Assembly: GCA_964019135.1 (NCBI GenBank)
Contig: OZ025258.1
Coordinates: forward strand, 32,234,186 to 32,298,185
Source: Arenicola marina
Lineage: Eukaryota; Annelida; Polychaeta; Arenicolidae
Direction of reading: 5' to 3'
DNA: 64,000 nucleotides
Shown in pieces: positions 505 to 54,200 of this stretch. Below the pieces are notes generated by a model. That model ran no database searches, was not told where the DNA came from, and saw only the letters and a list, made by a program, of their open reading frames with translations. The position numbers and the translations under genes are program-made. How positions within the stretch are numbered: the stretch's first letter is position 1; each line of letters starts with the position of its first letter.

Positions 505-659
505 ATAGGACGGTGTTGATCTGATCCACGTCGTCACCGTTACACCCGTCGGAATCACAGTAGGTCATACACTTGGTGTTGGTAGAGTCTGTACACGTGG
601 GACCTCCATTGATGTCAGTAGCGGTTTTAGAGCCAATGCAACCTTTCTTTACCATGACG
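505..659 (-). CDS. Gene A exon: LU domain back half
   Basis: The acceptor is ..TTTCCAG at 661-660 and the donor is CTAT|GTGAGC. At 155 nt it has the same length as the gene B first-domain back exon. It encodes VMVKKGC and ends with CDSDGCN, the Cys-Asn signature closing LU domains. Confidence 0.75.
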
Positions 660-3588
660 CTGGAAAGTAATCGTCGCACATGTATGTCAAGGTCACAACG
701 GTAAGGAAAAACGGCGTACTGGGTAATTTTCGTCAACAATTGCATTATATTGATATGCAAAACGATTATATTTGAACACTGATTGTTTTCACCTATACCC
801 ATAACCCCCTCCCCCCCTCCAACCCCCACCCTCGGCCCCCGCCTTGCCATCACACAGAAAAATGTTTGCATATTTATATATTACACATTAACACATGGCG
901 GTATAGGGGGTCGGCGTCATTCGATGTCGACACAAGATGCTGAGTACTTGTGACCAGTTCCCCTTTCCTCTCCCTCGACCGAAAGACCCACTTGACGACG
1001 GTCTGGCAGATATGTTGAGGTCACAACCTACCCATTGGTGAGACATTGACGACGGTCTGGCAAGTATGTTGAGGTTACAACTTACTCATTGGTGAGACAC
1101 TTGACGACAGTCTGGCAGATATGTTGAGGTCACAACCTACCCATTGGTGAGACACTTGACGACGGTCTGGCAGATATGTTGAGGTCACAAGCTACCCATT
1201 GGTGAGACACTTGACGACGGTCTGGCAGATATATTGAGATCACAACCTAGCCATTGGTGAGACACTTGACGACGGCCTGGCAGATATGTTGAGGTCACAA
1301 CCTACCCATTGGTGAGACACTTGACGACGGTCTGGCAGATATGTTGAGGTCACAACCTACCCATTGGTGAGACACCGGACGACGGTCTGGCAGACCTGGC
1401 TGGAGCGACACTGACTCGTCTTCCCGTGTGCCAGGCAGAGAGCCTCGCTGTCGGAATCGGAGCACTCGTGACACGTGGGTCCTGTCAATCAATCAGAAAG
1501 AAGTCGCATTGAGTCGTGATACAATGGAGCATGTCAGCTCTCGCGGGTTCAACTTCCGGCTTGGCAGGTTGTAGACAAATAAACGAACACGTGTTTTCTG
1601 TTCTCTGCGCAGTTTAACTAGTTTCAACTCGCTGGACTCTGCAGTCTGCTCTTATTCGGTTCCTCCAACATAAATCTTGAAGATCATATTAAATTATTTA
1701 AAGCAGTACAAACTTTTATTTCTGGAATAGGCCGATTCATCTAAGGAATGCTGTCTATTTCATTTTCAGTGTTGTATGCCACTCAATCTTTGTCACTGTA
1801 TTGAATTTGAACTTTCTGTATATTTGATCAACTGTACTTGTTAATGACTTAACCTCAACTCCACCACTATAATTTTATTACATGTTGAGGTGGCCGTTGA
1901 TATGTGTATTTGCTATCGGTAATCTCGTTAAATAAATAAAGTTTATACAAAAAAAGGCTTTAACTCGTACCCTGCGTAACTATGGATACCAAGCGCAGAG
2001 GGCTGCCATATTACTGGTGACATAGGACGTGGAACCACGCGAGCTAGGGGTGGGTCACAATTTGTCTTACGTGCGACTTAAATAAAGTTAACTTATTAGT
2101 GTCAATATATTCGTAGATGATACTTTGGGCTTGTGTAGCATTTCTAAGTTAAATTGGGGATGCCAACTTACTATTCAATAAATGTATACATTTGTTTGCT
2201 TCGGTCATACCTCAGTTAAATTGGTCCTGAAATATTTGCTAGCATGAATAGGTAATATATGCTTTCTCTATATGGGAACGTCGAAATTAAGCCTTAAGTT
2301 ATAAGAAACAGAATTTGTTTTCTTTTTCAACTGGAAACTTGTGTTGACCAACAATAATAATTCTATCAAGAATTTGCAAATGTAATATACAGAATGAATA
2401 TTAATTTAGTGCATCATCTTCATTGTTCGCTACTTCTTGTTCATACGTTGCATGACAAATTTCTACTAGTCACACAACATATCTTTTTCATAGTTCATCT
2501 TCATAACATGTCTTTTTTAAGGTTGTCGAACTTAATTTTGATTAAATTGTACCTTTTTGTGCTACTTTTGTCCTGGCGTCTAATCATGTGAACTATGTAT
2601 AATAATAAAACCACTAACTATTACAATATCGATACCAATTAACCCACAAGGAAGCCAGTAATATTAGGAAATTATGGCAGGTTTATATATAGAGATTTAT
2701 CTCTCGTTCTTTTAGCCATCATAAACATCACAAAAAACAATAAAGGGATCATCATATATCTCTGTTATGTCAATGACGTCTCTTCTCCTACATTGAACTA
2801 CAATTGTGACAAAGGCATGTTCCCGTGTTAATGAATCCTGTGTGCCGTACTAAATAAATGTGTGTCATAATTACTGTTTTTAAACTTGTTTTTGTGACTT
2901 TTAAAATAAAATTTGACATTACGGTTTAATATATCACCAACTCTATTCTAGGTGCGTTTTATTTAAATGGTGCTTTTTAGGGTTTTGATGCAGTCTGTTT
3001 CATTCATCTTCTTCATTTAGTCATAGATATGTTAATTGACCTTTTCAGCTACATTGTGCTCATGACCTTAATTTATAATTAACGCTGCATGACCCTTTAA
3101 TCATAATTACATTTCCTTTTTAGGTTGTCTGTCTAAGTGTTGATCAAAAAATGTAACTTCTACAGGTCGAGACCTAAACATTCATCGGTTTGGATAATGT
3201 ATCCGGCATTACTGTGGTATATTGAGCTACTCGTTGGTGGGTACAATAAGTGCGTCAGCCTTGCAGTAGAAACAGGAAACGACCTGAGTGATAAACGTTG
3301 CACTATTGTCCCCAATCCAGCTTCGGAGGAGGTACCTAACATTTATTGTTGGGACTGTTGGAAACCTATTCTACTACAATCGCAACAGAAAAAAGATACA
3401 CTGTTTCGGTCGACATCGTTCACGAACAACGTTTATATCTCAATATTTGCACCCTCACATATCCTCCTCATCCTATTACACCTCCTAGGTGTAATATGCC
3501 AGAGAGAGCAATTTTAGTTTAACTTACCGGCAGCAAACACGCTGTTCGCTATCAGCAGTAAGCCGATCGCCAAAGTCCACGTGGTCAT
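505..3588 (-). CDS. Gene A: 5' part of a secreted multi-LU-domain protein (partial, runs off left edge)
   Basis: Three coding exons join in frame: 3528-3588 (signal peptide), 1361-1481 (LU front half) and 505-659 (LU back half). The signal peptide is about 20 residues with a hydrophobic core and an A-A end. The domain has six Cys in the front exon (opening TCHEC) and five in the back exon (KGC, TC, KC, YC, GCN), the spacing expected of a Ly6/uPAR three-finger domain. Exon phases (1, 2, 1) and lengths (61, 121, 155 nt) match the start of gene B, so gene A is probably the 5' end of another five-domain paralogue continuing beyond position 1. An in-frame stop at 470 is reached only if the CTAT|GTGAGC donor at 505/504 is skipped. 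That donor is also present in gene B, so I prefer splicing. Extracellular function is unknown. Confidence 0.75.
992..1375 (-). repeat. 55-bp tandem repeat carrying an exon end plus 5' splice donor
   Basis: Seven copies start at 992, 1046, 1101, 1156, 1211, 1266 and 1321, and an eighth partial copy is the real exon end. On the minus strand each unit reads CAGACCGTCGTC..CTCACCAATGG|GTAGGTTGTGACC, so the array is a ladder of donors entering the intron. Units are 54-55 bp with few mismatches. Confidence 0.9.
1361..1481 (-). CDS. Gene A exon: LU domain front half
   Basis: The exon starts after ..TTGACAG at 1482 and ends CCAATGG|GTAGGT. It is 121 nt, phase 1 to phase 2, and encodes GPTCHEC...CQTVVRC with six Cys. 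Its last 29 nt plus donor are repeated seven more times just downstream (992-1375). Confidence 0.8.
1482..3527 (-). other. Gene A intron 2
   Basis: This 2-kb AT-rich stretch lies between the signal exon and the first LU exon. I see no exon with usable splice sites and no recognisable element. Short open frames here have no family signature. Confidence 0.6.
3528..3588 (-). CDS. Gene A exon: signal peptide
   Basis: The ATG at 3588 opens a 20-codon hydrophobic leader (MTTWTLAIGLLLIANSVFAA) and the exon ends GCCG|GTAAGT in phase 1. A 5' UTR segment extends to about 3609, after the acceptor TCCTCCACAG. The gene B counterpart has the same 61-nt coding length. Confidence 0.8.
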
Positions 3589-3937
3589 TCTGGTGAATGA
3601 AGGTCTCACCTGTGGAGGAAACAACAGATAGGCAGTCATTTCTGTCAGAAAGGGACAACGTGCCCACAAGTCAAACGTCCACGAACTAGGAAGGCGACGT
3701 CATCTCTGTCTGGCAATGCATGTGTCATGGCCTGAATCATTATTACGGATTGACAGTCACGTCACGTGATATTTGTTACTGCAAGTCTTTTAGTTTAACA
3801 TGGACTTTCTGAATGATGTCATTAGTATTTTACTGCGTCATATTGGAGGCGCAGAAACAGAATATGTTAAGCGTACTTCTTGCGGTAAATTCTCGGTTAG
3901 ATGCCATCCAGGAGGTATATTGTGAGACAGCACTTAC

Positions 3938-4030
3938 CAGTAATATGTCTATACTTGTGAGGTTCGACCTTCGAGTGCGAGCAGCGTCCTGTGGTGTGCT
4001 CCCCCGGCGCCAAACGAGCCTTTATGTACC
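3938..4030 (-). promoter_or_regulatory. Gene A core promoter and noncoding first exon
   Basis: Minus strand: a TATA-like ACATAAAG (about 4020-4027) is followed by about 80 nt of leader ending ATTACTG|GTAAGT at 3938. The block is nearly identical to 42741-42830 in front of gene B, including the CACACCACAGGACGCTGCT stretch, which supports shared promoter function. The start site itself is not visible. Confidence 0.65.
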
Positions 4031-6554: not shown

Positions 6555-9500
6555 GAGGGACAAGGCTCTGTAGAATGAGCGAAAGGGCTCTATGGAGAGA
6601 GGGACAAGACTCTGTGGAGAGAGGGACGAGGCTCTGTGGAGAGAGGGACGAGGCTCTGTGGAGAGAGGGACGAGGCTCAGTGGAGAGAGGGACGAGGCTC
6701 TGTGGAGAGAGGGACGAGGCTCAGTGGAGAGAGGGACGAGGCTCTGTGGAGAGAGGGACGAGGCTCTGTGGAGAGAGGGACGAGGCTCTGTGGAGAGAGG
6801 GACGAGGCTCTGTGGAGAGAGGGACGAGGCTCTGTGGAGAGAGGGACGAGGCTCTGTGGAGAGAGGGACGAGGCTCTGTGGAGAGAGGGACGAGGCTCTG
6901 TGGAGAGAGGGACGAGGCTCTGTGGAGAGAGGGACGAGGCTCAGTGGAGAGAGGGACGAGGCTCTGTGGAGAGAGGGACCAGGCTCAGTGGAGAGAGGGA
7001 CGAGGCTCTGTGGAGAGAGGGACGAGGCTCTGTGGAGAGAGGGACGAGGCTCAGTGGAGAGAGGGACGAGGCTCTGTGGAGAGAGGGACGAGGCTCAGTG
7101 GAGAGAGGGACGAGGCTCTGTGGAGAGAGGGACGAGACTCTGTGGAGAGAGGGACGAGGCTCTGTGGAGAGAGGGACGAGGCTCAGTAGAGAGAGGGACG
7201 AGACTCTGTGGAGAGAGGGACGAGGCTCAGTGGAGAGAGGGACGAGACTCTGTGGAGAGAGGGACGAGGCTCAGTGGAGAGAGGGACGAGGCTCTGTGGA
7301 GAGAGGGACGAGGCTCTGTGGAGAGAGGGACGAGGCTCAGTGGAGAGAGGGACGAGACTCTGTGGAGAGAGGGACGAGGCTCTGTGGAGAGAGGGACGAG
7401 GCTCAGTGGAGAGAGGGACGAGACTCTGTGGAGAGAGGGACGAGGCTCTGCGGAGAGAGGGACGAGGCTCAGTGGAGAGAGGGACGAGGCTCTGTGGAGA
7501 GAGGGACGATGCTCTGTGGAGAGAGAGACGAGGCTCTGTGGAGAGAGGGACGAGGCTCTGTGGAGAGAGGGACGAGGCTCTGTGGAGAGAGGGACGAGGC
7601 TCAGTGGAGAGAGGGACGAGGCTCTGTGGAGAGAGGGACGAGGCTCTGTGGAGAGAGGGACGAGGCTCTGTGGAGAGAGGGACGAGGCTCTGTGGAGAGA
7701 GGGACGAGGCTCTGTGGAGAGAGGGACGAGGCTCTGTAGAGAGAGGGACGAGGCTCTGTGGAGAGAGGGACGAGGCTCTGTGGAGAGAGGGACGAGGCTC
7801 TGTGGAGAGAGGGACGAGGCTCAATGGAGAGAGGGACGAGGCTCTGTGGAGAGAGGGACGAGGCTCTGTGGAGAGAGGGACGAGACTCTGTGGAGAGAGG
7901 GACGAGGCTCTGTGGAAAGAGGGACGAGACTGTCTAGAAGTGGACGAGGCTCAGTGGAGAGAGGGACGAGGCTCTGTGGAGAGAGGGACGAGACTATGTG
8001 GAGAGAGGGACGAGGCTCAGTGGAGAGAGGGACGAGGCTCTGTGGAGAGAGGGACGAGGCTCTGTGGAGAGAGGAACGAGACTCTGTGGAGAGAGGGACG
8101 AGGCTCTGTGGAGCGAGGGACGAGGCTCTGTGGAGAGAGGGACAAGGCTCTGCGGAGAGAGGGACGAGGCTCAGTGAAGAGTGGGACGAGGCTCTGTGGA
8201 GAGAGGGACGAGGCTCTGTGGAGAGAGGGACGAGGCTCAGTGGAGAGAGGGACGAGGCTCAGTGGAGAGAGGGACGAGGCTCAGTGGAGAGAGGGACGAG
8301 GCTCTGTGGAGAGAGGGACGAGGCTCTGTGGAGAGAGGGACGAGGCTCTGTGGAGAGAGGGACGAGGGTCTGTGGAGAGAGGGACGAGGCTCTGTGGAGA
8401 GAGGGACGAGGCTCTGTGGAGAGAGGGACGAGGCTCAGTGGAGAGAGGGACGAGGCTCTGTGGAGAGAGGGACGAGGCTCTGTGGAGAGAGCGACGAGGC
8501 TCTGTGGAGAGAGGGACGAGGCTCTGTGGAGAGAGGGACGAGGCTCTGTGGAGAGAGGGACGAGGCTCTGTGGAGAGAGGGACGAGGCTCTGTGGAGAGA
8601 AGGATGAGACTCTGTGGAGAGAGGGACGAGGCTCAGTGGAGAGAGGGAAGAGGCTCTGTGGAGAGAGGGACGAGGCTCTGTGGAGAGAGGGACGAGGCTC
8701 TGTGGAGAGAGGGACGAGGCTCTGTAGAGAGAGGGGCGAGGCTCTGTGGAGAGAGGGACGAGGCTCTGTGGAGAGAGGGACGAGGCTCTGTGGAGAGAGG
8801 GACGAGGCTCTGTGGAGAGAGGGACGAGACTCTGTGGAGAGAGGGACGAGGCTCAGTGGAGAGAGGGACGAGGCTCTGTGGAGAGAGGGACGAGGCTCAG
8901 TGGAGAGAGGGACGAGGCTCTGTGGAGAGAGGGACGAGGCTCTGTGGAGAGAGGGACGAGGCTCTGTAGAGAGAGGGGCGAGGCTCTGTGGAGAGAGGGA
9001 CGAGGCTCTGTGGAGAGAGGGACGAGGCTCTGTGGAGAGAGGGACGAGGCTCAGTGGAGAGAGGGACGAGGCTCTGTGGAGAGAGGGACGAGGCTCTGTG
9101 GAGAGAGGGACGAGGCTCTGTGGAGAGAGGGACGAGGCTCTGTGGAGAGAGGGACGAGGCTCTGCGGAGAGAGGGACGAGGCTCTGCGGAGAGAGGGACG
9201 AGGCTCAGTGGAGAGAGGGACGAGGCTCTGTGGAGAGAGGGACGAGGCTCTGTGGAGAGAGGGACGAGGCTCTGTGGAGAGAGGGACGAGGCTCTGTGGA
9301 GAGAGGGACGAGGCTCTGTGGAGAGAGGGACGAGGCTCAGTGGAGAGAGGGACGAGGCTCTGTGGAGAGAGGGACGAGGCTCTGTGGAGAGAGGGACGAG
9401 GCTCTGTGGAGAGAGGGACGAGGCTCAGTGGAGAGAGGGACGAGGCTCTGTGGAGAGAGGGACGAGGCTCTGTGGAGAGAGGGACGAGACTATGTGGAGA

Positions 9501-12500
9501 GAGGGACGAGGCTCAGTGGAGAGAGGGACGAGGCTCTGTGGAGAGAGGGACGAGGCTCTGTGGAGAAAGGGGCGAGGCTCTGTGGAGATAGGGACGAGGC
9601 TCTGTGGACAGAGGGACGAGGCTCTGTGGAGAGAGGGACGAGGCTCTGTGGAAAGAGGGACGAGTCTCAGTGGAGAGAGGGACGAGGCTCAGTGGAGAGA
9701 GGGACGAGGCTCAGTGGAGAGAGGGACGAGGCTCTGTGGAGAGAGGGACGAGGCTCAGTGGAGAGAGGGACGAGGCTCTGTGGAGAGAGGGACGAGGCTC
9801 AGTGGAGAGAGGGACGAGGCTCTGTGGAGAGAGGGACGAGGCTCTGTGGAGAGAGGGACGAGGGTCTGTGGAGAGAGGGACGAGGCTCTGTGGAGAGAGG
9901 GACGAGGCTCTGTGGAGAGAGGGACGAGGCTCTGTGGAGAGAGGGACGAGGCTCAGTGGAGAGAGGGACGAGGCTCTGTGGAGAGAGGGACGAGGCTCTG
10001 TGGAGAGAGGGACGAGGCTCTGTGGAGCGAGGGACGAGGTTCAGTGGAGAGAGGGACGAGGCTCAGTGGAGAGAGGGACGAGGCTCTGTGGAGAGAGGGA
10101 CGAGGCTCTGTGAAGAGAGGGACGAGACTCTGTGGAGAGAGGGACGAGGCTCTGTGGAGAGAGGGACGAGGCTCAGTGGAGAGAGGGAAGAGGCTCAGTG
10201 GAGAGAGGGACGAGGCTCAGTGGAGAGAGGGACGAGGCTCTGTGGAGAGAGGGACGAGGCTCTGTGGAGAGAGGGACGAGGCTCAGTGGAGAGAGGGACG
10301 AGGCTCTGTGGAGAGAGGGACGAGACTCTGTGGAGAGAGGGACGAGGCTCTGTGGAGAGAGGGACGAGGCTCTGTGGAGAGAGGGACGAGGCTCTGTGGA
10401 GAGAGGGACGAGACTCTGTGGAGAGAGGGACGAGACTATGTGGAGAGAGGGACGAGGCTCTGTGGAGAGAGGGACGAGGCTCTGTGGAGAGAGGGACGAG
10501 ACTCTGTGGAGAGAGGGACGAGGCTCTGTGGAGCGAGGGACGAGGCTCAGTGGAGAGAGGGACGAGGCTCAGTGGAGAGAAGGACGAGGCTCTGTGGAGA
10601 GAGGGACGAGACTATGTGGAGAGAGGGACGAGGCTCTGTGGAGAGAGGGACGAGGCTCTGTGGAGAGAGGGACGAGGCTCTGTGGAGAGAGGGACGAGGC
10701 TCAGTGGAGAGAGGGACGAGGCTCTGTGGAGAGAGGGACGAGGCTCTGTGGAGAGAGGGACGAGGCTCTGTGGAGAGAGGGACGAGGCTCTGTGGAGAGA
10801 GGGACGAGGCTCTGTGGAGAGAGGGACGAGGCTCAGTGGAGAGAGGGACGAGGCTCTGTGGAGAGAGGGACGAGACTCTGTGGAGAGAGGGACGAGACTC
10901 TGTGGAGAGAGGGACGAGGCTCAGTGGAGAGAGGGACGAGGCTCTGTGGAGAGAGGGACGAGGCTCTGTGGAGAGAGGGACGAGGCTCAGTGGAGAGAGG
11001 GACGAGGCTCTGTGGAGAGAGGGACGAGGCTCTGTGGAGAGAGGGACGAGGCTCTGTGGAGAGAGGGACGAGGCTCTGTCGAGAGAGGGACGAGGCTCAG
11101 TGGAGAGAGGGACGAGACTCTGTGGAGAGAGGGACGAGGCTCTGTGGAGAGAGGGACGAGGCTCTGCGGAGAGAAGGACGAGGCTCAGTGGAGAGAGGGA
11201 CGAGGCTCTGTGGAGAGAGGGACGAGGCTCTGTGGAGAGAGGGACACAGCTCAATGGAGAGAGGGACGAGACTCTGTGGAGAGAGGGACGAGGCTCTGTG
11301 GAGAGAGGGACGAGGCTCTGTGGAGAGAGGGACGAGACTCTGTGGAGAGAGGGACGAGGCTCTGTGGAGCGAGGGACGAGGCTCAGTGGAGAGAGGGACG
11401 AGGCTCAGTGGAGAGAAGGACGAGGCTCTGTGGAGAGAGGGACGAGACTATGTGGAGAGAGGGACGAGGCTCTGTGGAGAGAGGGACGAGGCTCTGTGGA
11501 GAGAGGGACGAGGCTCTGTGGAGAGAGGGACAAGGCTCAGTGGAGAGAGGGACGAGGCTCTGTGGAGAGAGGGACGAGGCTCTGTGGAGAGAGGGACGAG
11601 GCTCTGTGGAGAGAGGGACGAGGCTCTGTGGAGAGAGGGACGAGGCTCTGTGGAGAGAGGGACGAGGCTCAGTGGAGAGAGGGACGAGGCTCTGTGGAGA
11701 GAGGGACGAGACTCTGTGGAGAGAGGGACGAGACTCTGTGGAGAGAGGGACGAGGCTCAGTGGAGAGAGGGACGAGGCTCTGTGGAGAGAGGGACGAGGC
11801 TCTGTGGAGAGAGGGACGAGGCTCTGTGGAGAGAGGGACGAGGCTCTGTGGAGAGAGGGACGAGGCTCTGTGGAGAGAGGGACGAGGCTCAGTGGAGAGA
11901 GGGACGAGGCTCTGTGGAGAGAGGGACGAGGCTCTGTGGAGAGAGGGACGAGGCTCAGTGGAGAGAGGGACGAGGCTCTGTGGTGAGAGGGACGAGGCTC
12001 TGTGGAGAGAGGGACGAGGCTCTGTGGAGAGAGGGACGAGGCTCTGTCGAGAGAGGGACGAGGCTCAGTGGAGAGAGGGACGAGACTCTGTGGAGAGAGG
12101 GACGAGGCTCTGTGGAGAGAGGGACGAGGCTCTGCGGAGAGAAGGACGAGGCTCAGTGGAGAGAGGGACGAGGCTCTGTGGAGAGAGGGACGAGGCTCTG
12201 TGGAGAGAGGGACACAGCTCAATGGAGAGAGGGACGAGACTCTGTGGAGAGAGGGACGAGGCTCTGTGGAGAGAGGGACGAGGCTCTGTGGAGAGAGGGA
12301 CGAGGCTCAGTGGAGAGAGGGACGAGGCTCTGTGGAGAGAAGGACGAGGCTGAGTGGAGAGAGGGACGAGGCTCTGTGGAGAGAGGGACGAGGCTCAGTG
12401 GAGAGAGGAACGAGGCTCTGTGGAGAGAGGGACGAGACTATGTGGAGAGAGGGACGAGGCTCTGTGGAGAGAGGGACGAGGCTCTGTGGAGAGAGGGACG

Positions 12501-15500
12501 AGGCTCAGTGGAGAGAGGGACGAGGCTCTGTGGAGAGAGGGACGAGGCTCTGTGGAGAGAGGGACGAGGCTCTGTGGAGAGAGGGACGAGGCTCTGTGGA
12601 GAGAGGGACGAGGCTCTGCGGAGAGAGGGACGAGGCTCTGCGGAGAGAGGGACGAGGCTCAGTGGAGAGAGGGACGAGGCTCTGTGGAGAGAGGGACGAG
12701 GCTCTGTGGAGAGAGGGACGAGGCTCTGTGGAGAGAGGGACGAGGCTCTGTGGAGAGAGGGACGAGGCTCTGTGGAGAGAGGGACGAGGCTCAGTGGAGA
12801 GAGGGACGAGGCTCTGTGGAGAGAGGGACGAGGCTCTGTGGAGAGAGGGACGAGGCTCTGTGGAGAGAGGGACGAGGCTCAGTGGAGAGAGGGACGAGGC
12901 TCTGTGGAGAGAGGGACGAGGCTCTGTGGAGAGAGGGACGAGACTATGTGGAGAGAGGGACGAGGCTCAGTGGAGAGAGGGACGAGGCTCTGTGGAGAGA
13001 GGGACGAGGCTCTGTGGAGAAAGGGGCGAGGCTCTGTGGAGATAGGGACGAGGCTCTGTGGACAGAGGGACGAGGCTCTGTGGAGAGAGGGACGAGGCTC
13101 TGTGGAAAGAGGGACGAGTCTCAGTGGAGAGAGGGACGAGGCTCAGTGGAGAGAGGGACGAGGCTCAGTGGAGAGAGGGACGAGGCTCTGTGGAGAGAGG
13201 GACGAGGCTCAGTGGAGAGAGGGACGAGGCTCTGTGGAGAGAGGGACGAGGCTCAGTGGAGAGAGGGACGAGGCTCTGTGGAGAGAGGGACGAGGCTCTG
13301 TGGAGAGAGGGACGAGGGTCTGTGGAGAGAGGGACGAGGCTCTGTGGAGAGAGGGACGAGGCTCTGTGGAGAGAGGGACGAGGCTCTGTGGAGAGAGGGA
13401 CGAGGCTCAGTGGAGAGAGGGACGAGGCTCTGTGGAGAGAGGGACGAGGCTCTGTGGAGAGAGGGACGAGGCTCTGTGGAGCGAGGGACGAGGTTCAGTG
13501 GAGAGAGGGACGAGGCTCAGTGGAGAGAGGGACGAGGCTCTGTGGAGAGAGGGACGAGGCTCTGTGAAGAGAGGGACGAGACTCTGTGGAGAGAGGGACG
13601 AGGCTCTGTGGAGAGAGGGACGAGGCTCAGTGGAGAGAGGGAAGAGGCTCAGTGGAGAGAGGGACGAGGCTCAGTGGAGAGAGGGACGAGGCTCTGTGGA
13701 GAGAGGGACGAGGCTCTGTGGAGAGAGGGACGAGGCTCAGTGGAGAGAGGGACGAGGCTCTGTGGAGAGAGGGACGAGACTCTGTGGAGAGAGGGACGAG
13801 GCTCTGTGGAGAGAGGGACGAGGCTCTGTGGAGAGAGGGACGAGGCTCTGTGGAGAGAGGGACGAGACTCTGTGGAGAGAGGGACGAGACTATGTGGAGA
13901 GAGGGACGAGGCTCTGTGGAGAGAGGGACGAGGCTCTGTGGAGAGAGGGACGAGACTCTGTGGAGAGAGGGACGAGGCTCTGTGGAGCGAGGGACGAGGC
14001 TCAGTGGAGAGAGGGACGAGGCTCAGTGGAGAGAAGGACGAGGCTCTGTGGAGAGAGGGACGAGACTATGTGGAGAGAGGGACGAGGCTCTGTGGAGAGA
14101 GGGACGAGGCTCTGTGGAGAGAGGGACGAGGCTCTGTGGAGAGAGGGACGAGGCTCAGTGGAGAGAGGGACGAGGCTCTGTGGAGAGAGGGACGAGGCTC
14201 TGTGGAGAGAGGGACGAGGCTCTGTGGAGAGAGGGACGAGGCTCTGTGGAGAGAGGGACGAGGCTCTGTGGAGAGAGGGACGAGGCTCAGTGGAGAGAGG
14301 GACGAGGCTCTGTGGAGAGAGGGACGAGACTCTGTGGAGAGAGGGACGAGACTCTGTGGAGAGAGGGACGAGGCTCAGTGGAGAGAGGGACGAGGCTCTG
14401 TGGAGAGAGGGACGAGGCTCTGTGGAGAGAGGGACGAGGCTCAGTGGAGAGAGGGACGAGGCTCTGTGGAGAGAGGGACGAGGCTCTGTGGAGAGAGGGA
14501 CGAGGCTCTGTGGAGAGAGGGACGAGGCTCTGTCGAGAGAGGGACGAGGCTCAGTGGAGAGAGGGACGAGACTCTGTGGAGAGAGGGACGAGGCTCTGTG
14601 GAGAGAGGGACGAGGCTCTGCGGAGAGAAGGACGAGGCTCAGTGGAGAGAGGGACGAGGCTCTGTGGAGAGAGGGACGAGGCTCTGTGGAGAGAGGGACA
14701 CAGCTCAATGGAGAGAGGGACGAGACTCTGTGGAGAGAGGGACGAGGCTCTGTGGAGAGAGGGACGAGGCTCTGTGGAGAGAGGGACGAGACTCTGTGGA
14801 GAGAGGGACGAGGCTCTGTGGAGCGAGGGACGAGGCTCAGTGGAGAGAGGGACGAGGCTCAGTGGAGAGAAGGACGAGGCTCTGTGGAGAGAGGGACGAG
14901 ACTATGTGGAGAGAGGGACGAGGCTCTGTGGAGAGAGGGACGAGGCTCTGTGGAGAGAGGGACGAGGCTCTGTGGAGAGAGGGACAAGGCTCAGTGGAGA
15001 GAGGGACGAGGCTCTGTGGAGAGAGGGACGAGGCTCTGTGGAGAGAGGGACGAGGCTCTGTGGAGAGAGGGACGAGGCTCTGTGGAGAGAGGGACGAGGC
15101 TCTGTGGAGAGAGGGACGAGGCTCAGTGGAGAGAGGGACGAGGCTCTGTGGAGAGAGGGACGAGACTCTGTGGAGAGAGGGACGAGACTCTGTGGAGAGA
15201 GGGACGAGGCTCAGTGGAGAGAGGGACGAGGCTCTGTGGAGAGAGGGACGAGGCTCTGTGGAGAGAGGGACGAGGCTCTGTGGAGAGAGGGACGAGGCTC
15301 TGTGGAGAGAGGGACGAGGCTCTGTGGAGAGAGGGACGAGGCTCAGTGGAGAGAGGGACGAGGCTCTGTGGAGAGAGGGACGAGGCTCTGTGGAGAGAGG
15401 GACGAGGCTCAGTGGAGAGAGGGACGAGGCTCTGTGGTGAGAGGGACGAGGCTCTGTGGAGAGAGGGACGAGGCTCTGTGGAGAGAGGGACGAGGCTCTG

Positions 15501-18500
15501 TCGAGAGAGGGACGAGGCTCAGTGGAGAGAGGGACGAGACTCTGTGGAGAGAGGGACGAGGCTCTGTGGAGAGAGGGACGAGGCTCTGCGGAGAGAAGGA
15601 CGAGGCTCAGTGGAGAGAGGGACGAGGCTCTGTGGAGAGAGGGACGAGGCTCTGTGGAGAGAGGGACACAGCTCAATGGAGAGAGGGACGAGACTCTGTG
15701 GAGAGAGGGACGAGGCTCTGTGGAGAGAGGGACGAGGCTCGGTGGAGAGAGGGACGAGGCTCAGTGGAGAGAGGGACGAGGCTCTGTGGAGAGAAGGACG
15801 AGGCTGAGTGGAGAGAGGGACGAGGCTCTGTGGAGAGAGGGACGAGGCTCAGTGGAGAGAGGAACGAGGCTCTGTGGAGAGAGGGACGAGACTATGTGGA
15901 GAGAGGGACGAGGCTCTGTGGAGAGAGGGACGAGGCTCTGTGGAGAGAGGGACGAGGCTCTGTGGAGAGAGGGACGAGGCTCAGTGGAGAGAGGGACGAG
16001 GCTCTGTGGAGAGAGGGACGAGGCTCTGTGGAGAGTGGGACACAGCTCAATGGAGAGAGGGACGAGACTCTGTGGAGAGAGGGACGAGGCTCTGTGGAGA
16101 GAGGGACGAGGCTCTGTCGAGAGAGGGACGAGGCTCTGTGGAGAGAGGGACGAGGCTCTGTCGAGAGAGGGACGAGGCTCAGTGGAGAGAGGGACGAGAC
16201 TCTGTGGAGAGAGGGACGAGGCTCTGTGGAGAGAGGGACGAGGCTCTGTGGAGAGAAGGACGAGGCTCAGTGGAGAGAGGGACGAGGCTCTGTGGAGAGA
16301 GGGACGAGGCTCAGTGGAGAGAGGGACGAGGCTCTGTGGAGAGAAGGACGAGGCTCAGTGGAGAGAGGGACGAGGCTCTGTGGAGAGAGGGACGAGGCTC
16401 AGTGGAGAGAGGGACGAGGCTCTGTGGAGAGAGGGACGAGACTATGTGGAGAGAGGGACGAGGCTCTGTGGAGAGAGGGACGAGACTATGTGGAGAGAGG
16501 GACGAGGCTCTGTGGAGAGAGGGACGAGGCTCTGTGGAGAGAGGGACGAGGCTCTGTGGAGAGAGGGACGAGGCTCAGTGGAGAGAGGGACGAGGCTCTG
16601 TGGAGAGAGGGACGAGGCTCTGTGGAGAGAGGGACGAGGCTCTGTGGAGAGAGGGACGAGGCTCTGTGGAGAGAGGGACGAGACTCTGTGGAGAGAGGGA
16701 CGAGGCTCTGTGGAGAGAGGGACGAGGCTCTGTGGAGAGAGGGACGAGACTCTGTGGAGAGAGGGACGAGACTCTGTGGAGAGAGGGACGAGGCTCAGTG
16801 GAGAGAGGGACGAGGCTCTGTGGAGAGAGGGACGAGGCTCTGTGGAGAGAGGGACGAGGCTCTGTGGAGAGAGGGACGAGGCTCTGTGGAGAGAGGGACG
16901 AGGCTCTGTGGAGAGAGGGACGAGGCTCAGTGGAGAGAGGGACGAGGCTCTGTGGAGAGAGGGACGAGGCTCTGTGGAGAGAGGGACGAGGCTCAGTGGA
17001 GAGAGGGACGAGGCTCTGTGGAGAGAGGGACGAGGCTCTGTGGAGAGAGGGACGAGGCTCTGTGGAGAGAGGGACGAGGCTCAGTGGAGAGAGGGACGAG
17101 GCTCTGTGGAGAGAGGGACGAGGCTCTGTGGAGAGAGGGACGAGGCTCTGTGGAGAGAGGGACGAGGCTCTGTCGAGAGAGGGACGAGGCTCAGTGGAGA
17201 GAGGGACGAGGCTCTGTGGAGAGAGGGACGAGGCTCTGTGGAGAGAGGGACGAGGCTCTGTGGAGAGAGGGACACAGCTCAATGGAGAGAGGGACGAGAC
17301 TCTGTGGAGAGAGGGACGAGGCTCTGTGGAGAGAGGGACGAGGCTCTGTGGAGAGAGGGACGAGGCTCAGTGGAGAGAGGGACGAGGCTCTGTGGAGAGA
17401 AGGACGAGGCTGAGTGGAGAGAGGGACGAGGCTCTGTGGAGAGAGGGACGAGGCTCAGTGGAGAGAGGAACGAGGCTCTGTGGAGAGAGGGACGAGACTA
17501 TGTGGAGAGAGGGACGAGGCTCTGTGGAGAGAGGGACGAGGCTCTGTGGAGAGAGGGACGAGGCTCTGTGGAGAGCGGGACGAGGCTCAGTGGAGAGAGG
17601 GACGAGGCTCTGTGGAGAGAGGGACGAGGCTCTGTGGAGAGTGGGACACAGCTCAATGGAGAGAGGGACGAGACTCTGTGGAGAGAGGGACGAGGCTCTG
17701 TGGAGAGAGGGACGAGGCTCTGTCGAGAGAGGGACGAGGCTCTGTGGAGAGAGGGACGAGGCTCTGTCGAGAGAGGGACGAGGCTCAGTGGAGAGAGGGA
17801 CGAGACTCTGTGGAGAGAGGGACGAGGCTCTGTGGAGAGAGGGACGAGGCTCTGTGGAGAGAAGGACGAGGCTCAGTGGAGAGAGGGACGAGGCTCTGTG
17901 GAGAGAGGGACGAGGCTCAGTGGAGAGAGGGACGAGGCTCTGTGGAGAGAAGGACGAGGCTCAGTGGAGAGAGGGACGAGGCTCTGTGGAGAGAGGGACG
18001 AGGCTCAGTGGAGAGAGGGACGAGGCTCTGTGGAGAGAGGGACGAGACTATGTGGAGAGAGGGACGAGGCTCTGTGGAGAGAGGGACGAGACTATGTGGA
18101 GAGAGGGACGAGGCTCTGTGGAGAGAGGGACGAGGCTCTGTGGAGAGAGGGACGAGGCTCTGTGGAGAGAGGGACGAGGCTCAGTGGAGAGAGGGACGAG
18201 GCTCTGTGGAGAGAGGGACGAGGCTCTGTGGAGAGAGGGACGAGGCTCTGTGGAGAGAGGGACGAGGCTCTGTGGAGAGAGGGACGAGACTCTGTGGAGA
18301 GAGGGACGAGGCTCAGTGGAGAGAGGGACGAGGCTCTGTGGAGAGAGGGACGAGGCTCTGTGGAGAGAGGGACGAGGCTCTGTGGAGAGAGGGACGAGGC
18401 TCTGTGGAGAGAGGGACGAGGCTCTGTGGAGGGAGGGACGAGGCTCAGTGGAGAGAGGGACGAGGCTCTGTGGAGAGAGGGACGAGACTCTGTGGAGAGA

Positions 18501-20525: not shown

Positions 20526-20628
20526 ATGGTATTGATATCGCTGCTGTTGTGTAGGCCGGTGTAACACAGAACCCAATATGCCATACACGAAAGGAGACCG
20601 TTTTGACATGGAGTTGTGAAGCTGGTCC

Positions 20629-37200: not shown

Positions 37201-40200
37201 ATGCTGATCTGACACACTTGGTTGGGGTTGCACTGCTCCAACGGACCCTGGTTACAGGTCGCCTCGTCCGGGGCGTCCGTGCATGACCGACAATGAATGC
37301 CTGGAACAAAGCGTAACCACATGTCAACTCTTCTTCCGGTGTTTAGTTTATCGTATTAAACACAATAAAAATCAATGGGATATATAACAAGTGGTACTGT
37401 TATCTATTACACGGCTACGGCTAGATAGGAGGTGGGGTGGATATGTTATTATGGTACAGTAGGGGTGTCAGCACATCGGGATTAGTGCACTATTTGAATT
37501 GTAATAATTCTTGAAGAAACTAATGGCTTATTATATTTTATGTTCATTGCATCTATCCCATAGTGACTGTTCGGAGCGACAGTTCGGTAATGAATTATGA
37601 CTCACCCACGGCTCTGACTGGGCACGCTGTGAAGACAAGAAAAAGAAGGACGTATTGGTACACAGACAAACAATGATGACAACGGCGACAGATGCAACCA
37701 CCTTTATGACACCCAAATACTGCATTAATATTGTGAAAAGACTAGAATATGCTGGGTATGGTTGTTCAGGAATGAGCCCCCTCCCCCTGCTTACATAGAT
37801 ACGTATATATGTAACGCGATAAGGAATCATTTTACGTAAACATTGAGGCAAAACATGCATCAACCTTCCACAGTACCAGTAATCAACACATCATAACGCA
37901 CGCAGAATAACGGAATCACCCAACTACTATCCTGAGTCACGTACCCGAGAGAACCAGCCATGCTGGACACATGGTCCCGCAAAACCACCCAGAAAATAAA
38001 TAATTTATCATTCAGGTAACACAGGTGGGAGGTAACCCACAGAGCATGGCGGCTATCAGGCTGACAGGTGGGAGGTAACTCACAGAGCATGGCGGGAGAC
38101 TGACAGGTGGGAGATAACTCACAGAGCATGGCGGCTATGAGACTGACAGGTGGGAGGTAACTCAGAGCATGGCGGCTATGAGACTGACAGGTGGGAGGTA
38201 ACTCACAGAGCATGGCGGGAGACTGACAGGTGGGAGGTAACTCACAGAGCATGGCGGGAGACTGACAGGTGGGAGATAACTCACAGAGCATGGCGGCTAT
38301 GAGACTGACAGGTGGGAGGTAACTCAGAGCATGGGGGCTATGAGACTGACAGGTGGGAGGTAACTCAGAGCATGGCGGCTATCAGACTGACAGGTGGGAG
38401 GTAACCCACAGAGCAGGGCGGCTATCAGGCTGACAGGTGGGAGGTAACTCACAGAGCATGGCGGGAGACTGACAGGTGGGAGGTAACTCACAGAGCATGG
38501 CGGGAGACTGACAGGTGGGAGGTAACTCACAGAGCATGGCGGCTATGAGACTGACAGGTGGGAGATAATTCACAGAGCATGGCGGCTATAAGACTGACAG
38601 GTGGGAGGTAACTCACAGAGCATTGCGGCTATAAGACTGACAGGTGGGAGGTAACTCACAGAGCATGGCGGGAGACTGGCAGGTGGGAGGTAACTCAGAG
38701 CATGGCGGCTATGAGACTGACAGGTGGGAGATAACTCAAAGCATGGCGGCTATGAGACTGACAGGTGGGAGGTAACTCACAGAGCATGGCGGGAGACTGA
38801 CAGGTGGGAGGTAACTCACAGAGCATGGCGGGAGACTGACAGGTGGGAGATAACTCACAGAGCATGGCGGCTATGAGACTGACAGGTGGGAGGTAACTCA
38901 GAGCATGGGGGCTATGAGACTGACAGGTGGGAGGTAACTCAGAGCATGGCGGCTATCAGACTGACAGGTGGGAGGTAACCCACAGAGCAGGGCGGCTATC
39001 AGGCTGACAGGTGGGAGGTAACTCACAGAGCATGGCGGGAGACTGACAGGTGGGAGGTAACTCACAGAGCATGGCGGGAGACTGACAGGTGGGAGGTAAC
39101 TCACAGAGCATGGCGGCTATGAGACTGACAGGTGGGAGATAATTCACAGAGCATGGCGGCTATAAGACTGACAGGTGGGAGGTAACTCACAGAGCATGGC
39201 GGCTATAAGACTGACAGGTGGGAGGTAACTCACAGAGCATGGCGGGAGACTGGCAGGTGGGAGGTAACTCAGAGCATGGCGGCTATGAGACTGACAGGTG
39301 GGAGATAACTCAAAGAGTATGGCGGCTATGAGACTGACAGGTAGGAGGTAACTCACAGAGCATGGCGGCTATAAGACTGACAGGTGGGAGGTAACTCACA
39401 GAGCATGGCGGATACGAGACTGGCACTTTCGTCGTTACAGGCATCGCCATCACAATACATTCCGCACTTGGTGTTGTCCGCATTCTCACACGTCACGACG
39501 TTGAGCTCCGGGCCTGCGCCCACACACCCCTTCTTCATCTGGCTGTCCCTGCAAGGTCAGCAAGGACGCTTTTGATCGGCCATGAGCGAATGCAATATTT
39601 TAAAAAGGAAACTAGAGGTCTATATTGGATGAGGTCTTTGCAAATCTTGTCAGCAGCGTCAAGGAATAAATAGATACATTATCGACAATAGTCATATCAG
39701 TCATATCAAATAATAAATAATAACTCCTTAATACTGTTGAATCAATGCGCGTCTCAGTTGATCTGGTCTTTGTTTTTGTGAACTATTTGTTCAGCTAGTT
39801 GCCCTCTTACTATGATTTTGTTCTTCTTACTTACTCTCCTATGATGCAGCGGATGCTGGTCTGACACACTTGATTGGGATTGCATTGCTCCAGTGGTCCC
39901 TGGTCGCAAACATTCTCATCCGTCTCTTCCACACAGGTACGGCACAGGGGTCCTGAAATGATATGGGCCTTACCATTGCAATCACATGAGTCGAAAAGCG
40001 GCTCAGTGGCAGGTGTGCAGCGAAACGATTATAATAATAGCGTGCCAGGCCATGCAAGAGAGTTTTATTACAGGATCAGTGTATCTCTGCCTCGAGGAGA
40101 CAACGTTAATTGGCGGCTTCGGAAGAGATAACTCACCCACATCCGGGACCGGGCAAGCTGCAAGAAATAAGAAGAAAGTAAGTGATATTATCTTTACAGA

Positions 40201-48217: not shown

Positions 48218-51200
48218 CTGCAATGAGAAACCCGCACCCACCCACCCACACACAGCCCCGTGGCCAGAGGGAACGATAGGTATCAGTATATCGCTTCGCA
48301 TATCTCAGTCAGGGATAGAATGAGGAAGGTGACTCCACTCACCTGTTCCGTGGAGCGTGGCTCCCCACTTACCGTGAAGGCATAGAACCCACTTCGCAAG
48401 CTGGACGCCATGACGGGATGACATGCGGAAGACACGTCTCCTCCTCTGGCTCCCACACATCACCCCCACCCCTGCCGCTGCCCCTGCCACCCAATTCATC
48501 ACCTGTGCCGTTCGGCGTCAGCGTTGTCTGCTGTCCCGGTGCCGAGGTTGTCTGAGGAATGATGATGTCCGCGTTTGGCGTGGTGGCTTCCGGCGGATCC
48601 GTGACATTCACCGGGGGTCCGATTGTGCAACCTGCAGAGTAGTAAGACATATTCTATAGGTAGTATTGCTCCTTACAGTAATCCCAGACTTCACCTTGAC
48701 CGCCATTGAAACCGCTTAAACTGGTAAATCTTACTTAAACTGTATAATCGTTATTAGGAATAATACTATATACGAGTGCATCCATTATCACTTTAGTCAT
48801 ACTTTTGTCAGTACAAATGACAAATGAGTTTTCTACCACAGCGATTAGTCTCTTTACTTCGGCCTGTATCGTGCAGCGATGTCGGACACACCTTCTGTCC
48901 ATTGTCATGTGGCTCAATTATGGAAAGATTATAGTTCGAGAACAGTGCTTTTTCGTCGTAGGTTGGTTGTGCTCATGGCCCAGAAATAATATTCAACATA
49001 CTTTGAACACTTCCTTAATCCAGAAAAGTTACCTCTTGGGTGAGGACTTTCTTGAAGCCGATAATCGACTAATGTTCCACTTAGCGCTGAGTCTATGTGG
49101 TTTATGAATACCGCTCTCGCTGCATCTGCTGAAGTGTACTTGGGACCCGCGCTTTGCATGTCCTTACCGAGTGCGGCGATGGCAGTCTGAGAATCAGCGT
49201 TGCAGCCGTCCTGGCCGCACGTCATCGCGCATTTGAAGTCCTTGATGCAGACCGGGTTGTCCAGCATAGCGGGGTCGGCTACACTCTCACGCTTGCACCT
49301 CTTGGTGATGGTGGTCCTGGAACGAAGCGGCAGAAAAATGTCGACCATCTCATCATCATGGGTTGTCATCAGCCATATATGTAAGCCATAACAGGTGGTC
49401 TACATTATGCGTTCAGTATACACACTGTATAACCTATACATGTGTATTCTGGATAGGCTATACTCAATATACATTCTGTATATATATATATATACCAAAT
49501 ACACACTAGTTACAATATGTCTACACTCCTTAGGCAATTCCAATTTTCCACGCATCTTGTCAAGTCGGAAATATTTGTGTAGATAAAACAATTGTTATTG
49601 TGATATTGCTTGTGTCAAATATTTCCAAAATGCCAGGATCTTGATCACGTGGTACACTAGAGCGTTTCTTGTAGATCATGTAGGTCGTTAACAATTCACC
49701 AGACATTTTTTGAAGTGCCTTTGAAGTGCCCATCTGCCGTATGAGGTGCTTTGGCATGATGTCCATACGAAACCTTTTTAATTTATTAATTTATTAATTT
49801 ATAATAATAATATTATTATTTATTATTATTATGGTTAAGGATACGTCCGAGTTTTCCTTTTTAGACAATCACAGACCACACGAAACACTGCCTACTTACA
49901 GACCACTGTCGCGTTGACAAGTGACCTTGGTGTAGCAGAGGTTGCCATCGCGACACCGGACGTCAGCGCAATCACTGTCGTTGTCGACGTCAGTACATGT
50001 CTGGCAGTCGATGCCTAAATTAGACGCATATATATACAGACACAGTCAAAGTGTGACTTACTGTTTTGTTACAGTTAAAGATTAAAAAGGATAATACGAG
50101 AGCGGGTAATTGATAGTTCATCGGGCTTATATAGGATATCCTCTGACATAATGTCATATATCACAGCACAAGAAGTATTTAAAAAGAAGAATAGAGGTCT
50201 AATGAATGTCTGTGAATTCTCACCTGGAGGCTTAACTGGGCAATCTACAAAATAAAAATATTGCACATTGTCAGACGAATGGGACTTCGGCGCATAATTG
50301 TAGCATAAGACCATGAATGAATGTAGTTGCAGCTTTAATAACTATGCACCAATCTACAGTTGAATCATGGCAATATGACAATAACGATGGTTAGGGGGGC
50401 GTTAGGCAATGTTACTGACCCCACATCAAGCTGCTACAGCTTGATGAAGGGCCAATAAAATGTCTAACGCCATGCAACACTCGCGCTATTACAATTACTA
50501 CCAGTTACATTTTTAGTTTACCTCACATATATATGCCTTGCTTCTTTGGTTTAATTCGCATACACCGTTCGAAGTAAAATGCTTAGCGCTTACAAGCCTT
50601 CCCAGTTCTTGTGAGCCAGTCGCCTTCTTTACACCATACACCAAGTAAATATCAGTCTATCGTGACCAAGAAACAGCACGCGTAGCTAGGCAACTAGGTG
50701 GGCCATTTAAATCAATAAGCACAACTCTGTTGCGTGCGACGTCATATTTCATTGTTCTACGCCATGTAACTATGGGCGTGATCGATTCGCCTCTTCCAAC
50801 GTCTACCTCTTCCGGAACAGTGCATGCAGTACGATCGTTTTGCTTCTTCTATTCCGAGAAGACCTCTTCTGCTCTTCCGCCCAAGTAGGTGGAAGAGAGA
50901 AGAGGTAGAGGCTATTCCAAGATGGCGGAAGCTAACTATGCAATATTCGCTCAGTGTGACAAAATAGGTTTTAGGAGTAATACCAGAATGAAACAATGAA
51001 TAAAATTCTGTGAAACATATGTAAGACCTTTTATTTTGTTATTTGAAAGATATGTGTCAGGTATATGAGGGCCCATATATGCAGTTACCCATGTATCTAT
51101 CTGTTGAAGTTGGGCGATAATATATGGACGTGGGCGATAAATTGTGAGCTATAAGTGAGTTTCCGTTGGCCATATTGAAACTACTCTTTCAACTCGTCCG

Positions 51201-54200
51201 ACGCGATCGATTCATCGCTCATTTTCTCTATTCTTGGATGAGCTCTTCTCTTCCTGGAAGAGTTGAATCGATTAGACTCTATGGCAAAGATTGTCTGTCG
51301 AAAAGCGAAGGGCCGTTTTGGTCAGATTACAGGATTTTAGCAGCCTTCAGATTTAATGCTATTGTACTAGTTACCACGACCATCAACTCATAATATATAT
51401 ATATATATATATATATATAGGCAAGAGGGCGGCGGGATGAATGTGCTTATGGAGAGCATAAAGGAGGGCTGACATATATTTACTGAGAGCCTGGAAGATG
51501 GCTGACATGCACTTACTGAGAGCCTGGAAGAGAGCTGATATGAGTCGGGAAGAGGACTGACATGTACTTACTAAGAGCCTGGAAGAGGGCTGACATGTAC
51601 TTACTGAGACTCTGGAAGAGGGCTGACATGTACTTACTAAGAGCCTGGAAGAGGGCTGACATGTGCTTACTGAGACTCTGGAAGAGGGCTGACATGTGCT
51701 TACTGAGACCCAGGAAGAGGGGTGACATGTACTTGCTGAGAGCCTGGCAGAGAGCTGACATGTACTTACTGAGACCCTGGAAGAGGGCTGGAATGTACTT
51801 ACCCTGGAAGAGGGCTGACGTGTACTTAGTGAGACCCTGGAAGAGGGCTGACGTGTACTTACTGCGACCCTGGAAGAGGGCTGACATGTACTTACTGAGA
51901 GCTTGGAAGATGGTTACCAGGCCTGTCTCCAACGCATCACGGGGTGCCGTTAGAGCCAGGCAGCATTTGCTCTCTTTGCGATGTTGCAGCGCATATTTTT
52001 GCGTATAGGGCGCACAGTTTTTAACTAGCCGACAAAATATGGATCTTTCCAGAATCCTTATGCAATTTACTGACCTGGCGGATGGAAAATACTTTGATTT
52101 ATTGTCCTAACTTGCAATGTCAGGGCTTTTTCTGGGCACATTTATTCGATCAGCGCCAGCCCGCGCCATTATGCGCTGCAACACCGCAAAGACAGCAAAT
52201 GCTGCTCTAACGGCACCCCGTGATGCGTTAGAGACAGGCCTGGTAAGGAAGAGGGCTGACATGTACTTACTGAAAGCCTGGAAGAGGACTGACGTGTACT
52301 TACTGAGAGACTGGAAGAGCTCGGCTGTGTCTGTGTTACAGTTGTCAGTGTCACAGGCCAGGGAGCAGTTGTCGATGTTCTCACAGACCATCTTGTTGAG
52401 GCTGCTGAGATCGGCGACGGCAGCTATGTTCAAACATTTTTTCTTGTAACGCGCTCTGAAAAAGTTGGATCATAAAGTAATCTTATTAAGGCCAATATAT
52501 GCCACCATGACGGCCTGGGGTGTCGGGACTGTGTGTCGGCGAGCCTACCCGCAAAGTACATACAAGGTGCCCTATGGCCCAGACCGCACAGTATAGACAA
52601 TGTACCCTATGGCCCTATGGCTAATTTACATTAGAGTAAATCCGACTACTTCAGAAAATCGCACGGATGTTTGGTGGTTTATTACCGGGTATGTTTAATC
52701 TTCGAGACCAAGGTTCCCGCATTCTTGACAGCCAAACAGACAGCATAGAAAGCTGATGTAGGACATACCATAATACTAACTAATTGACTCATGGTAATGC
52801 AATCTTAGGTATACCAACGATGGGACTGCCTAGATACAGCTCTTAGGACGATGGTGAGCACCAATCTTACGTCTCATTCGGTCGATCGCAGAGCACTTTG
52901 GCGAAGCAGATTTGGTTGCGGGTACAGGTCTCGATTCCTTGTGTGTTGCAGTCTCCTTCGTTGTCAGCGTTGTCACACACGGTGCAGATGGGTCCTGGAA
53001 AGAGGGGTGAGCTGTGTGGGCGACTGCTACATCTAAGGCACATACCTCGCTTAAAGGACAACGAAGCTAGGAGAGGTTCACCGTCACTGAAGTTACTTAT
53101 CGAGGCAATCACTGAGTAAACAACACGTTGCTAGACATTCGCATACAACGAGAATGTGGGATATTTAAAAGGACGACTTACCCACTCCCGTGGTAGGACA
53201 ATCTGAAAGGTAAATGGAAGCAGCAATCAATAACGCGTAGGATACCATATCACTTAAAGCACGATAACGCGATCAGTGCCCATGGTCGTGTCTATCAACA
53301 ACCGCAATGTACTCTAGACGCTGCTCTCAACATACATATCAACTACAACATTCAGGCCTCGAGTGCGGCCTTCAGCGTGATACCATTGCTAGCCTAGCAA
53401 TAGGGTACGCATTCGGTTGTGAAACGGCACCGCAGTTCTAAAGAGATGTCTGCAAGGCGACCTGTACATGACTGCAGACAGAAGAAGGCCCGCGTCTGTG
53501 TTGTATTCCTGCCATTAGGTGGAAGCACGTTGCGACAGTGCACATTTAGAGGCATGGGCAGCACGACAGGGGCCAGTATGTTAAATACAACACTACTCAT
53601 GCACTACTCTTGAGCCTCATGCTTGACGCCACTAATTTCTTTCTGACAGGTCCGGACCATTATCTGTGCCCTGTAGGAACTCACCGATCACGGTGTCGAG
53701 GTTTTGCGCGGTGTTGTCGTTACAGCCCTCAATGTCGCAGTAGTAAGCGCACTTCGACGTGTCGCCATTTTCGCAGTAGGGGGTGTCCAGTGCTGTGGCA
53801 ACGGAGGATCCTACACATCCCTTCTTCATCAAACTTGACCTGAAATATATATCAAAAGATTCGCTTAAATTCCCGTGACTAGATCTAAAACGTAACATAG
53901 CACTACACGGAAACTGTCCGAACATCAACATTTTCACAAATTATTTTACTAACTTATTGTAAGTACCAAGGACCACATCCATACATATTTCTGGCCATGG
54001 CATATTTGGACAACTGCTCCTCGATTCAAATCCACGCAATGCTTGACTCGCCATCTTATTAAAAGATGTTGTTTTGACAGTTTCTTGCCAGTTTTAGAAA
54101 GGTGAAGGTCATACATCGGGCCTTCTTATATGTTTCAATCCTAGATCATGTTAGAAACGTCGCCTTGCCGATATCTGTCTAGAGCCGCATTTGGGAAACG

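Follow-up and report, generated by a model that had tools for sequence, protein, structure and literature searches.

Minisatellites at the 5' splice donors of LU-domain exons in an annelid gene cluster resemble amphioxus mirages

Minisatellite-like repeats that span exon/intron boundaries, called mirages, have been described from amphioxus in Adh3, the globin genes BflGb6 and BflGb9, PGBD5, troponin C, and further loci (PMC3087553, PMC3902484). The accessible portions of these reports state that splicing is undisturbed, that the repeats are unstable, and that they offer a route to new introns, and the mechanism is called unclear there (PMC3087553, PMC3902484). According to the same portions, both 5' and 3' boundaries can be affected, the units are 10-160 bp long, and BflGb6 carries 3 to 6 copies. 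In human segmental duplications, minisatellites of ~30 bp vary between recent paralogues, and some are located at exon-intron boundaries; in the accessible part of that article they often stay exonic and can create new introns (PMC2812944). The model of Rogers, as far as its available outline goes, explains intron gain by tandem genomic duplication of a segment with a splice signal. The earthworm metallothionein genes, also from an annelid, contain intronic minisatellites differing between tandem gene copies; their units are ~180 bp on average and lie inside intron 1, and an exon-donor origin is not described in the accessible part of that report (PMC12783039). Among titles and the starts of abstracts, in a search covering subscription journals thinly, no other report on donor-seeded minisatellites was recognised.

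The arrays analyzed here are similar to amphioxus mirages, as these are outlined in the accessible text, in that the unit spans the exon/intron boundary, splice signals are present in many units, and the length is unstable. They differ in their occurrence in an annelid genome, in the restriction to 5' boundaries among the LU exons, in the copy number of up to 81 in the window, in the four events within one gene family, and in the period-spaced direct repeats seen in paralogues with little or no expansion. In contrast to the human repeats, read-through of the arrays hits a stop within the first units. The duplicated segment with a splice signal is shared with the Rogers model, but the arrays here do not create a new intron and only extend the 5' end of one that already exists. 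Thus, a known but little-studied kind of repeat is apparently found in a new and distant phylum, and the new aspects are the four hits on one gene family and the direct repeats of paralogues at the array period (43 and 27 bp).

The window, which is the whole stretch of 64,000 nucleotides that was analyzed, corresponds to G000:C11:32234186-32298185 of an 867-Mb genome, several contigs of which are chromosome-sized. The mitochondrial contig (C762) of this genome shows the order nad3-nad2-cox1-cox2-atp8-cox3-nad6-cob-atp6-nad5, all on a single strand, and nad4L, nad4, and nad1 are found to the other side; COX1 was named by a Pfam match and the other genes by their reading frames under code 5. We take this gene order to be that of annelids, while the lancelet order would presumably include nad1-nad2-cox1-cox2 and atp8-atp6-cox3. 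Mainly on the basis of this order, a lancelet origin of the genome was rejected. A tRNA scan of the mitochondrial piece with bacterial settings found none, and a search for the GFP family gave no matches in this genome and none in the control genomes either.

All LU exons found in the window are on the minus strand. Each LU domain is split over two exons, designated as LU5 (the 5' half, with six invariant cysteines) and LU3 (the 3' half, ending in CN). Single LU domains of the window stay below the Pfam cut-offs, while a profile built from seven of the ten joined domains matched LYPD6 (E-value 6e-4), LYPD6B (0.0023), and TEX101 (0.006) in PDB; the LU label therefore stands. Across the seven profile rows, 11 cysteines are invariant; LU domains usually have 8-10 cysteines. 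The Pfam UPAR_LY6 search of the genome returned no matches, as it did for the control genomes, and a large protein search with the joined LU protein revealed no homologue. Four putative 21-nt linker mini-exons, each followed by a GTRAG donor, were recognized in gene C at 31884-31904, 36059-36079, 37606-37626, and 40137-40157, and two of the four were joined in frame.

Table 1. Arrays and adjoining LU exons in the window (copy numbers of the arrays from TRF; donor, first intron base as read on the sequence; a slash marks the exon/intron boundary in minus-strand units).
Feature	Position	Strand	Copies	Donor	Unit or remark
LU3 exon, gene A	505-663	-		504 (putative)	12-nt direct repeat with one copy on each side of the donor
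55-bp array, gene A	989-1394	-	7.4	1360	Last ~33 nt of LU5 exon (two mismatches), donor GTAGGT, ~16 nt of intron; CTGCCAGACCGTCGTC..CTCACCAATGG/GTAGGT..
LU5 exon, gene A	1361-1482	-		1360	Joins the LU3 exon in frame
28-bp array	22480-23519	-	37		Begins ~15 nt past the donor of LU5 exon 23553-23651
26/27-bp array	30072-31511	-	54.7	31504	Last ~7 nt of LU5 exon, GTAAGT, ~14 nt of intron; ..GTGTGGTCT/GTAAGTAGGC..
LU5 exon at 27-bp array edge	31505-31617	-		31504	
33-bp array, gene C	32099-34787	-	81.5	34771	16-18 nt of LU3 exon end, then GTRAGT and intron; CCCTCTTCCAGGCTCTCA/GTRAGTACATG..
LU3 exon, gene C, at 33-bp array edge	34772-34922	-		34771	
43-bp array	38021-39422	-	34	39399	~23 nt of LU3 exon end, then GTGAGT and intron; CAGTCTCATAGCCGCCATGCTCT/GTGAGTTACC..
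LU3 exon at 43-bp array edge	39400-39548	-		39399	
LU5 exon and donor, gene D	49860-50012	-	~1.4 (27-bp unit)	49899	
33-bp array, gene D	51464-52319	-	14.1 and 2.2	52303	Pieces 51464-51910 and 52247-52319

The first-pass annotation of this DNA had listed minisatellites that combine a coding exon end with its donor. All of the arrays it named were recovered by TRF, among many others, with a real LU exon at the array edge (Table 1), and in all four families the unit holds an exon end, the splice site, and the start of the intron. The composition of exon end plus own donor was confirmed, while the exon share, given earlier as 10-29 nt, is actually 7 nt in the 27-bp unit and up to ~33 nt in the 55-bp unit. 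The 33-bp repeat is also present in gene D, as had been claimed, and since this array is homologous to that of gene C, the families are counted as four. Of the full units in the five arrays, 6 of 7, 44 of 54, 72 of 80, 25 of 34, and 10 of 13 retain GT where the donor lies. The gene D array is interrupted by an insert of ~0.33 kb (~51913-52246) with long inverted ends, which resembles a small inverted-repeat transposon.

Each unit was aligned locally to its own exon end, a comparison that the first-pass annotation had proposed, and scored above the top shuffle in all four families: 74 versus 22 for the 55-bp unit, 26 versus 20 for the 27-bp unit, 45 versus 23 for the 33-bp unit, and 59 versus 23 for the 43-bp unit. 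The null consisted of 300 shuffled units, each scored on 12 of the 36 exon ends; three donor positions of the exon-end set are off by one to a few bases, while the donors of the window were checked on the sequence. The 27-bp unit, with just 7 nt of exon, has the smallest margin, and it scores an equal 26 on the exon end of the gene D paralogue. For seven other array consensi (28, 56, 44, 30, 35, 70, and 36 bp), the top scores over all exon ends are no higher than 13-17 and fall within the range of the shuffles. Because the own-exon scores exceed the shuffles and those of the other consensi do not, the exon-end origin of the four units is regarded as real and specific, contrary to the outcome, foreseen as a refutation, that the arrays would be unrelated to exon ends. 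The four units are unrelated to one another and each matches its own exon end, which supports, at the level of sequence, four independent seedings on LU-domain donors within one gene family. When the exon-nearest unit of the 28-bp array is aligned to the exon-donor junction, the two are in register (p 0.008 relative to shuffles), while the array consensus shows no significant match of this kind (p 0.145) and also matched nothing in the exon-end alignment. A fifth, older donor seeding is only suggested here.

The cluster recurs in the 100 kb on either side of the window, with 50 LU5 and 50 LU3 exons in 264 kb, as a tandem segmental duplication. Positions in this 264-kb region are given as big coordinates (big 96584 is window -3416). 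The 33-bp unit has 371 matches in the genome, and all matches listed are located at C11:32.20-32.88 Mb, which fits a local origin; the behavior of a dispersed satellite is not seen, as no unrelated genomic site is among the matches listed. A set of 84 start positions taken from the matches listed forms 18 groups, and the longest stretch among them, ~5.9 kb, is located at G000:C11:32877674-32883547. Between sister copies with flanks 99.2-100% identical, the array length is 2689 versus 2095 bp for the 33-bp array and 1402 versus 621 bp for the 43-bp array. The 28-bp array measures 1040 versus 1377 bp between sister copies, the 27-bp array is nearly equal (1440 versus 1438 bp), and the 55-bp array is equal (406 versus 406 bp); length instability between segmental copies is thus seen for all of these arrays except the last. 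The simplest reading of these sequences is that each array was born once, was copied with its gene, and is still changing. Orphan 43-bp arrays, with no real exon of their own at the edge, are present ~600 bp downstream of the LU3 donors of another domain type in the gene D copies (L009-L010, big 85568-94586; L016, big 217871-224106). They are probably leftovers of recombination between domains.

In paralogues with little or no expansion, the donor is spanned by short direct repeats. At big 96584, an LU3 exon whose donor is related to the 43-bp donor but present in single copy carries CAGTCTCA on the exon side and CAGTTCTCA on the intron side with a spacing of 43 bp. At the LU5 donor of gene D, a relative of the 27-bp array, GTGGTCTGT occurs twice with a spacing of 27 bp, as measured in the sister copy (big 80377), and this donor represents the unexpanded or the collapsed state of the 27-bp array. 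At the putative donor of the gene A LU3 exon, the 12-mer CAACACCGTCCT occurs twice, 23 bp apart, and a full array is absent; a paralogue has the 6-mer TCAACA twice, also 23 bp apart. The 12-nt repeat is possibly a nascent unit. When 36 non-redundant donors were tested for direct repeats, strong signals came from the four array donors and the gene A LU3 donor, and three further donors show p 0.035-0.045, about the chance level; of the four donor positions that were mis-set in this test, one belongs to these three. The other LU donors of this set showed no general enrichment of exon/intron direct repeats, and no clear seed repeat for the 55-bp array was found in the unexpanded paralogue. Such short repeats, spanning the donor with the period of the array, fit replication slippage, one of the causes named in the first-pass annotation, together with template switching. 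Since a collapsed array would leave the same repeat pattern, the direction from seed to array is one that we infer.

It is likely, with a probability of roughly 70%, that the arrays are mirages, that is, neutral minisatellites born by slippage and tolerated within the intron. The process would start with the tandem duplication of a short segment straddling the 5' splice site: a short direct repeat shared by the exon end and the intron start would allow a replication slip or template switch, by which the donor-containing segment is doubled. Later amplification would proceed through more slippage and unequal exchange. Splicing would stay at the exon-proximal donor and the extra copies would become intron; they would be nearly neutral because splicing continues at that donor, and tolerated because they are located inside the intron. 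Segmental duplication of the whole LU cluster would then spread the arrays to many genes, after which their lengths diverge. Slippage as the molecular step, the use of the first donor in RNA, and neutrality are what we infer from this pattern. Several observations speak against it. The 55- and 27-bp arrays have the same length in sister copies, what is seen in paralogues with about one copy may be array collapse and not the pre-array state, no clear seed repeat was seen for the 55-bp array, and the other LU donors show no general excess of direct repeats. In two arrays, the donor GT varies slightly less than the remaining unit, and arrays are found at donors beyond the random expectation while none is found at acceptors in 98 LU exon rows; with such an excess, pure neutrality needs donor-spanning arrays to be better tolerated than acceptor-spanning ones.

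The donor excess is where other origins have to be weighed. The LU gene territory of 39,677 bp contains 9,777 bp in arrays, in 15 TRF rows, which were reduced to 12 distinct families by merging the two related rows at big coordinates 16984 and 17168 and by assigning the two gene D pieces to the gene C family. A donor is spanned by four of the 12 LU-intron families, against 0.61-0.74 expected from random placement of a 42-bp seed (binomial P 0.0023-0.0048), where 0 or 8 added linker donors were assumed. Counting 13 families gives 0.66-0.80 expected (P 0.0032-0.0066), and 15 families with five hits, the doubtful 28-bp array being admitted, give 0.76-0.93 (P 0.0006-0.0016). Donor-spanning arrays are ~five to seven times commoner at this locus than under random placement (n = 4 of 12), an excess that is clear but modest and concerns one locus; an array is present at four of the 36 non-redundant LU donors. 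On the acceptor side, the nearest array is 66 bp from the LU profile hit among 98 exon rows (48 of the 50 LU5 and all 50 LU3), two LU3 rows having no array on that side in the DNA examined, and only 5' boundaries are affected among these rows. Both the excess (P 0.002-0.005) and the absence from acceptors would be expected if transcribed exon-donor junctions were hot spots, where R-loops, stalling of U1 or the spliceosome, or conflicts between transcription and replication promote duplication. However, the sense strand is G-rich in only one of the four arrays (GC skew +0.43); in the other three it is C-rich or close to neutral (-0.09, -0.25, -0.35), a pattern that does not favor the R-loops put forward in the first-pass annotation. 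Units fold as single-stranded DNA no better than shuffles (z 1.52, 0.02, -1.56, and -0.05), and hairpins as a driver of expansion are not supported by this. The lancelet mirages occur at acceptors too, according to the accessible text (PMC3087553), and the sample here is small and from one locus. A junction hot spot is therefore a minority view that we consider improbable, and ordinary slippage-born arrays are favored by GC skew, folding, and the minisatellite-rich genome. Seven random 10-kb pieces gave 53 overlapping TRF rows, with 1 to 21 in each, so that the genome is rich in minisatellites, although unevenly. Since minisatellites are common elsewhere, a donor-specific mechanism is not required. 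Taken as a whole, the interpretation given in the first-pass annotation is supported in part. It is also conceivable, although doubtful, that arrays simply arise everywhere, in LU introns as in the random samples, and that those overlapping donors survive and get noticed. This account agrees with the 8 of the 12 families for which no donor span could be demonstrated, and the donor excess within the locus argues against it; it differs from the neutral mirage reading only in whether the excess needs a cause.

The first-pass annotation had also raised selection for redundant donors, by which a multitude of equivalent 5' splice sites would lend splicing robustness or tunability. Strong donor hexamers do persist by the dozen in the units (GTAAGT in 27 of 54, GTRAGT in 59 of 80, and GTGAGT in 20 of 34). 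Raw mismatch rates of the donor GT are lower than those of the rest of the unit in the 27-bp (0.093 versus 0.127) and 33-bp arrays (0.050 versus 0.055), and higher in the 55-bp (0.071 versus 0.035) and 43-bp arrays (0.132 versus 0.063); the GT is thus not clearly better conserved. The first donor joins the next exon in frame in all four cases tried and yields an intact LU domain or linker. Donors with the strict motif and no prior stop number 1 of 6 in the 55-bp array, 1 of 34 in the 27-bp array, 1 of the first 40 of 60 in the 33-bp array, and 2 of 20 in the 43-bp array, all strict-motif donors being covered in the arrays other than the 33-bp one. The second stop-free donor of the 43-bp array is 43 nt on and out of phase. 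Donors in phase, the first included, are 2 of 6, 12 of 34, 23 of 60, and 2 of 20, and the internal ones lie behind stops where tested. Because of these stops and frameshifts, the internal donors are not equivalent in coding outcome; the earlier expression "tens of equivalent donors" is true of the sequence and fails for the coding result of the donors tested. Paralogues with a single donor, moreover, keep the exon end and the frame unchanged. Selection for spare donors is very unlikely on these grounds, and, read most simply, the sequences point to splicing at the exon-proximal donor, with the remainder as intron. Least of all do we expect an artefact of assembly or annotation, in which repeats are collapsed or inflated or the exons are not real. 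Assembled array lengths can err, and two 200-N gaps lie in the region, but two to four sister copies share these arrays, several of them at lengths of their own, and the exons form LU domains that match LYPD6 and are joined in frame through the first donor.

The evidence from this locus bears on how such arrays begin, and it speaks against a spare-donor role. Paired expanded and unexpanded paralogues, with short direct repeats that match the array period, allow direct tests of models for minisatellite birth and intron lengthening. We can only speculate, with rather low expectation, that mirages are no peculiarity of lancelets and lengthen introns widely across animals, starting where a donor happens to be flanked by a short repeat and arising beyond chance at exon-donor junctions, where transcription or splicing would favor duplication; if this is true, fast-duplicating clusters such as the LU locus would be a natural laboratory of intron lengthening. 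For gene finders, the locus is a warning, as tens of strong donor-like sites stand at the start of these introns and apparently none but the first can be used.

Other repeats were observed nearby. Satellites of 22 bp flank the LU genes at 6555-18945 (563 copies) and from 55310 to 64000 and on to window coordinate 77509 (~1009 copies), and a further one is located at window coordinate 139162-143877 (214 copies). One of the 200-N assembly gaps (55110-55309) adjoins a 22-bp satellite, and the second is at L001 4839-5038. On the plus strand of L001 (1586-1956), a 62-bp array of six copies, most with CGGCAG/GTAAGTCTC, is entered by an open frame; it is possibly a donor array of a putative exon outside the LU family, for which no tie to a known protein was found. 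The 56-bp array at 28741-29262 ends ~18 nt before a possible acceptor near 28722 of a putative exon, and its unit carries GACGGTAAGAT on the minus strand and matches no LU exon end. Arrays of 70 and 36 bp at L002:6984-7463 have a plus-strand unit with CCCTTTCAATACAGGTTTAG, which is acceptor-like and on the strand opposite to the LU genes. A 72-bp tandem array of 37 copies at L028:7309-9999 contains GGTTCGAACCC in its unit, which we take to be a tRNA-like B box, and it is perhaps a tandem tRNA-derived element.
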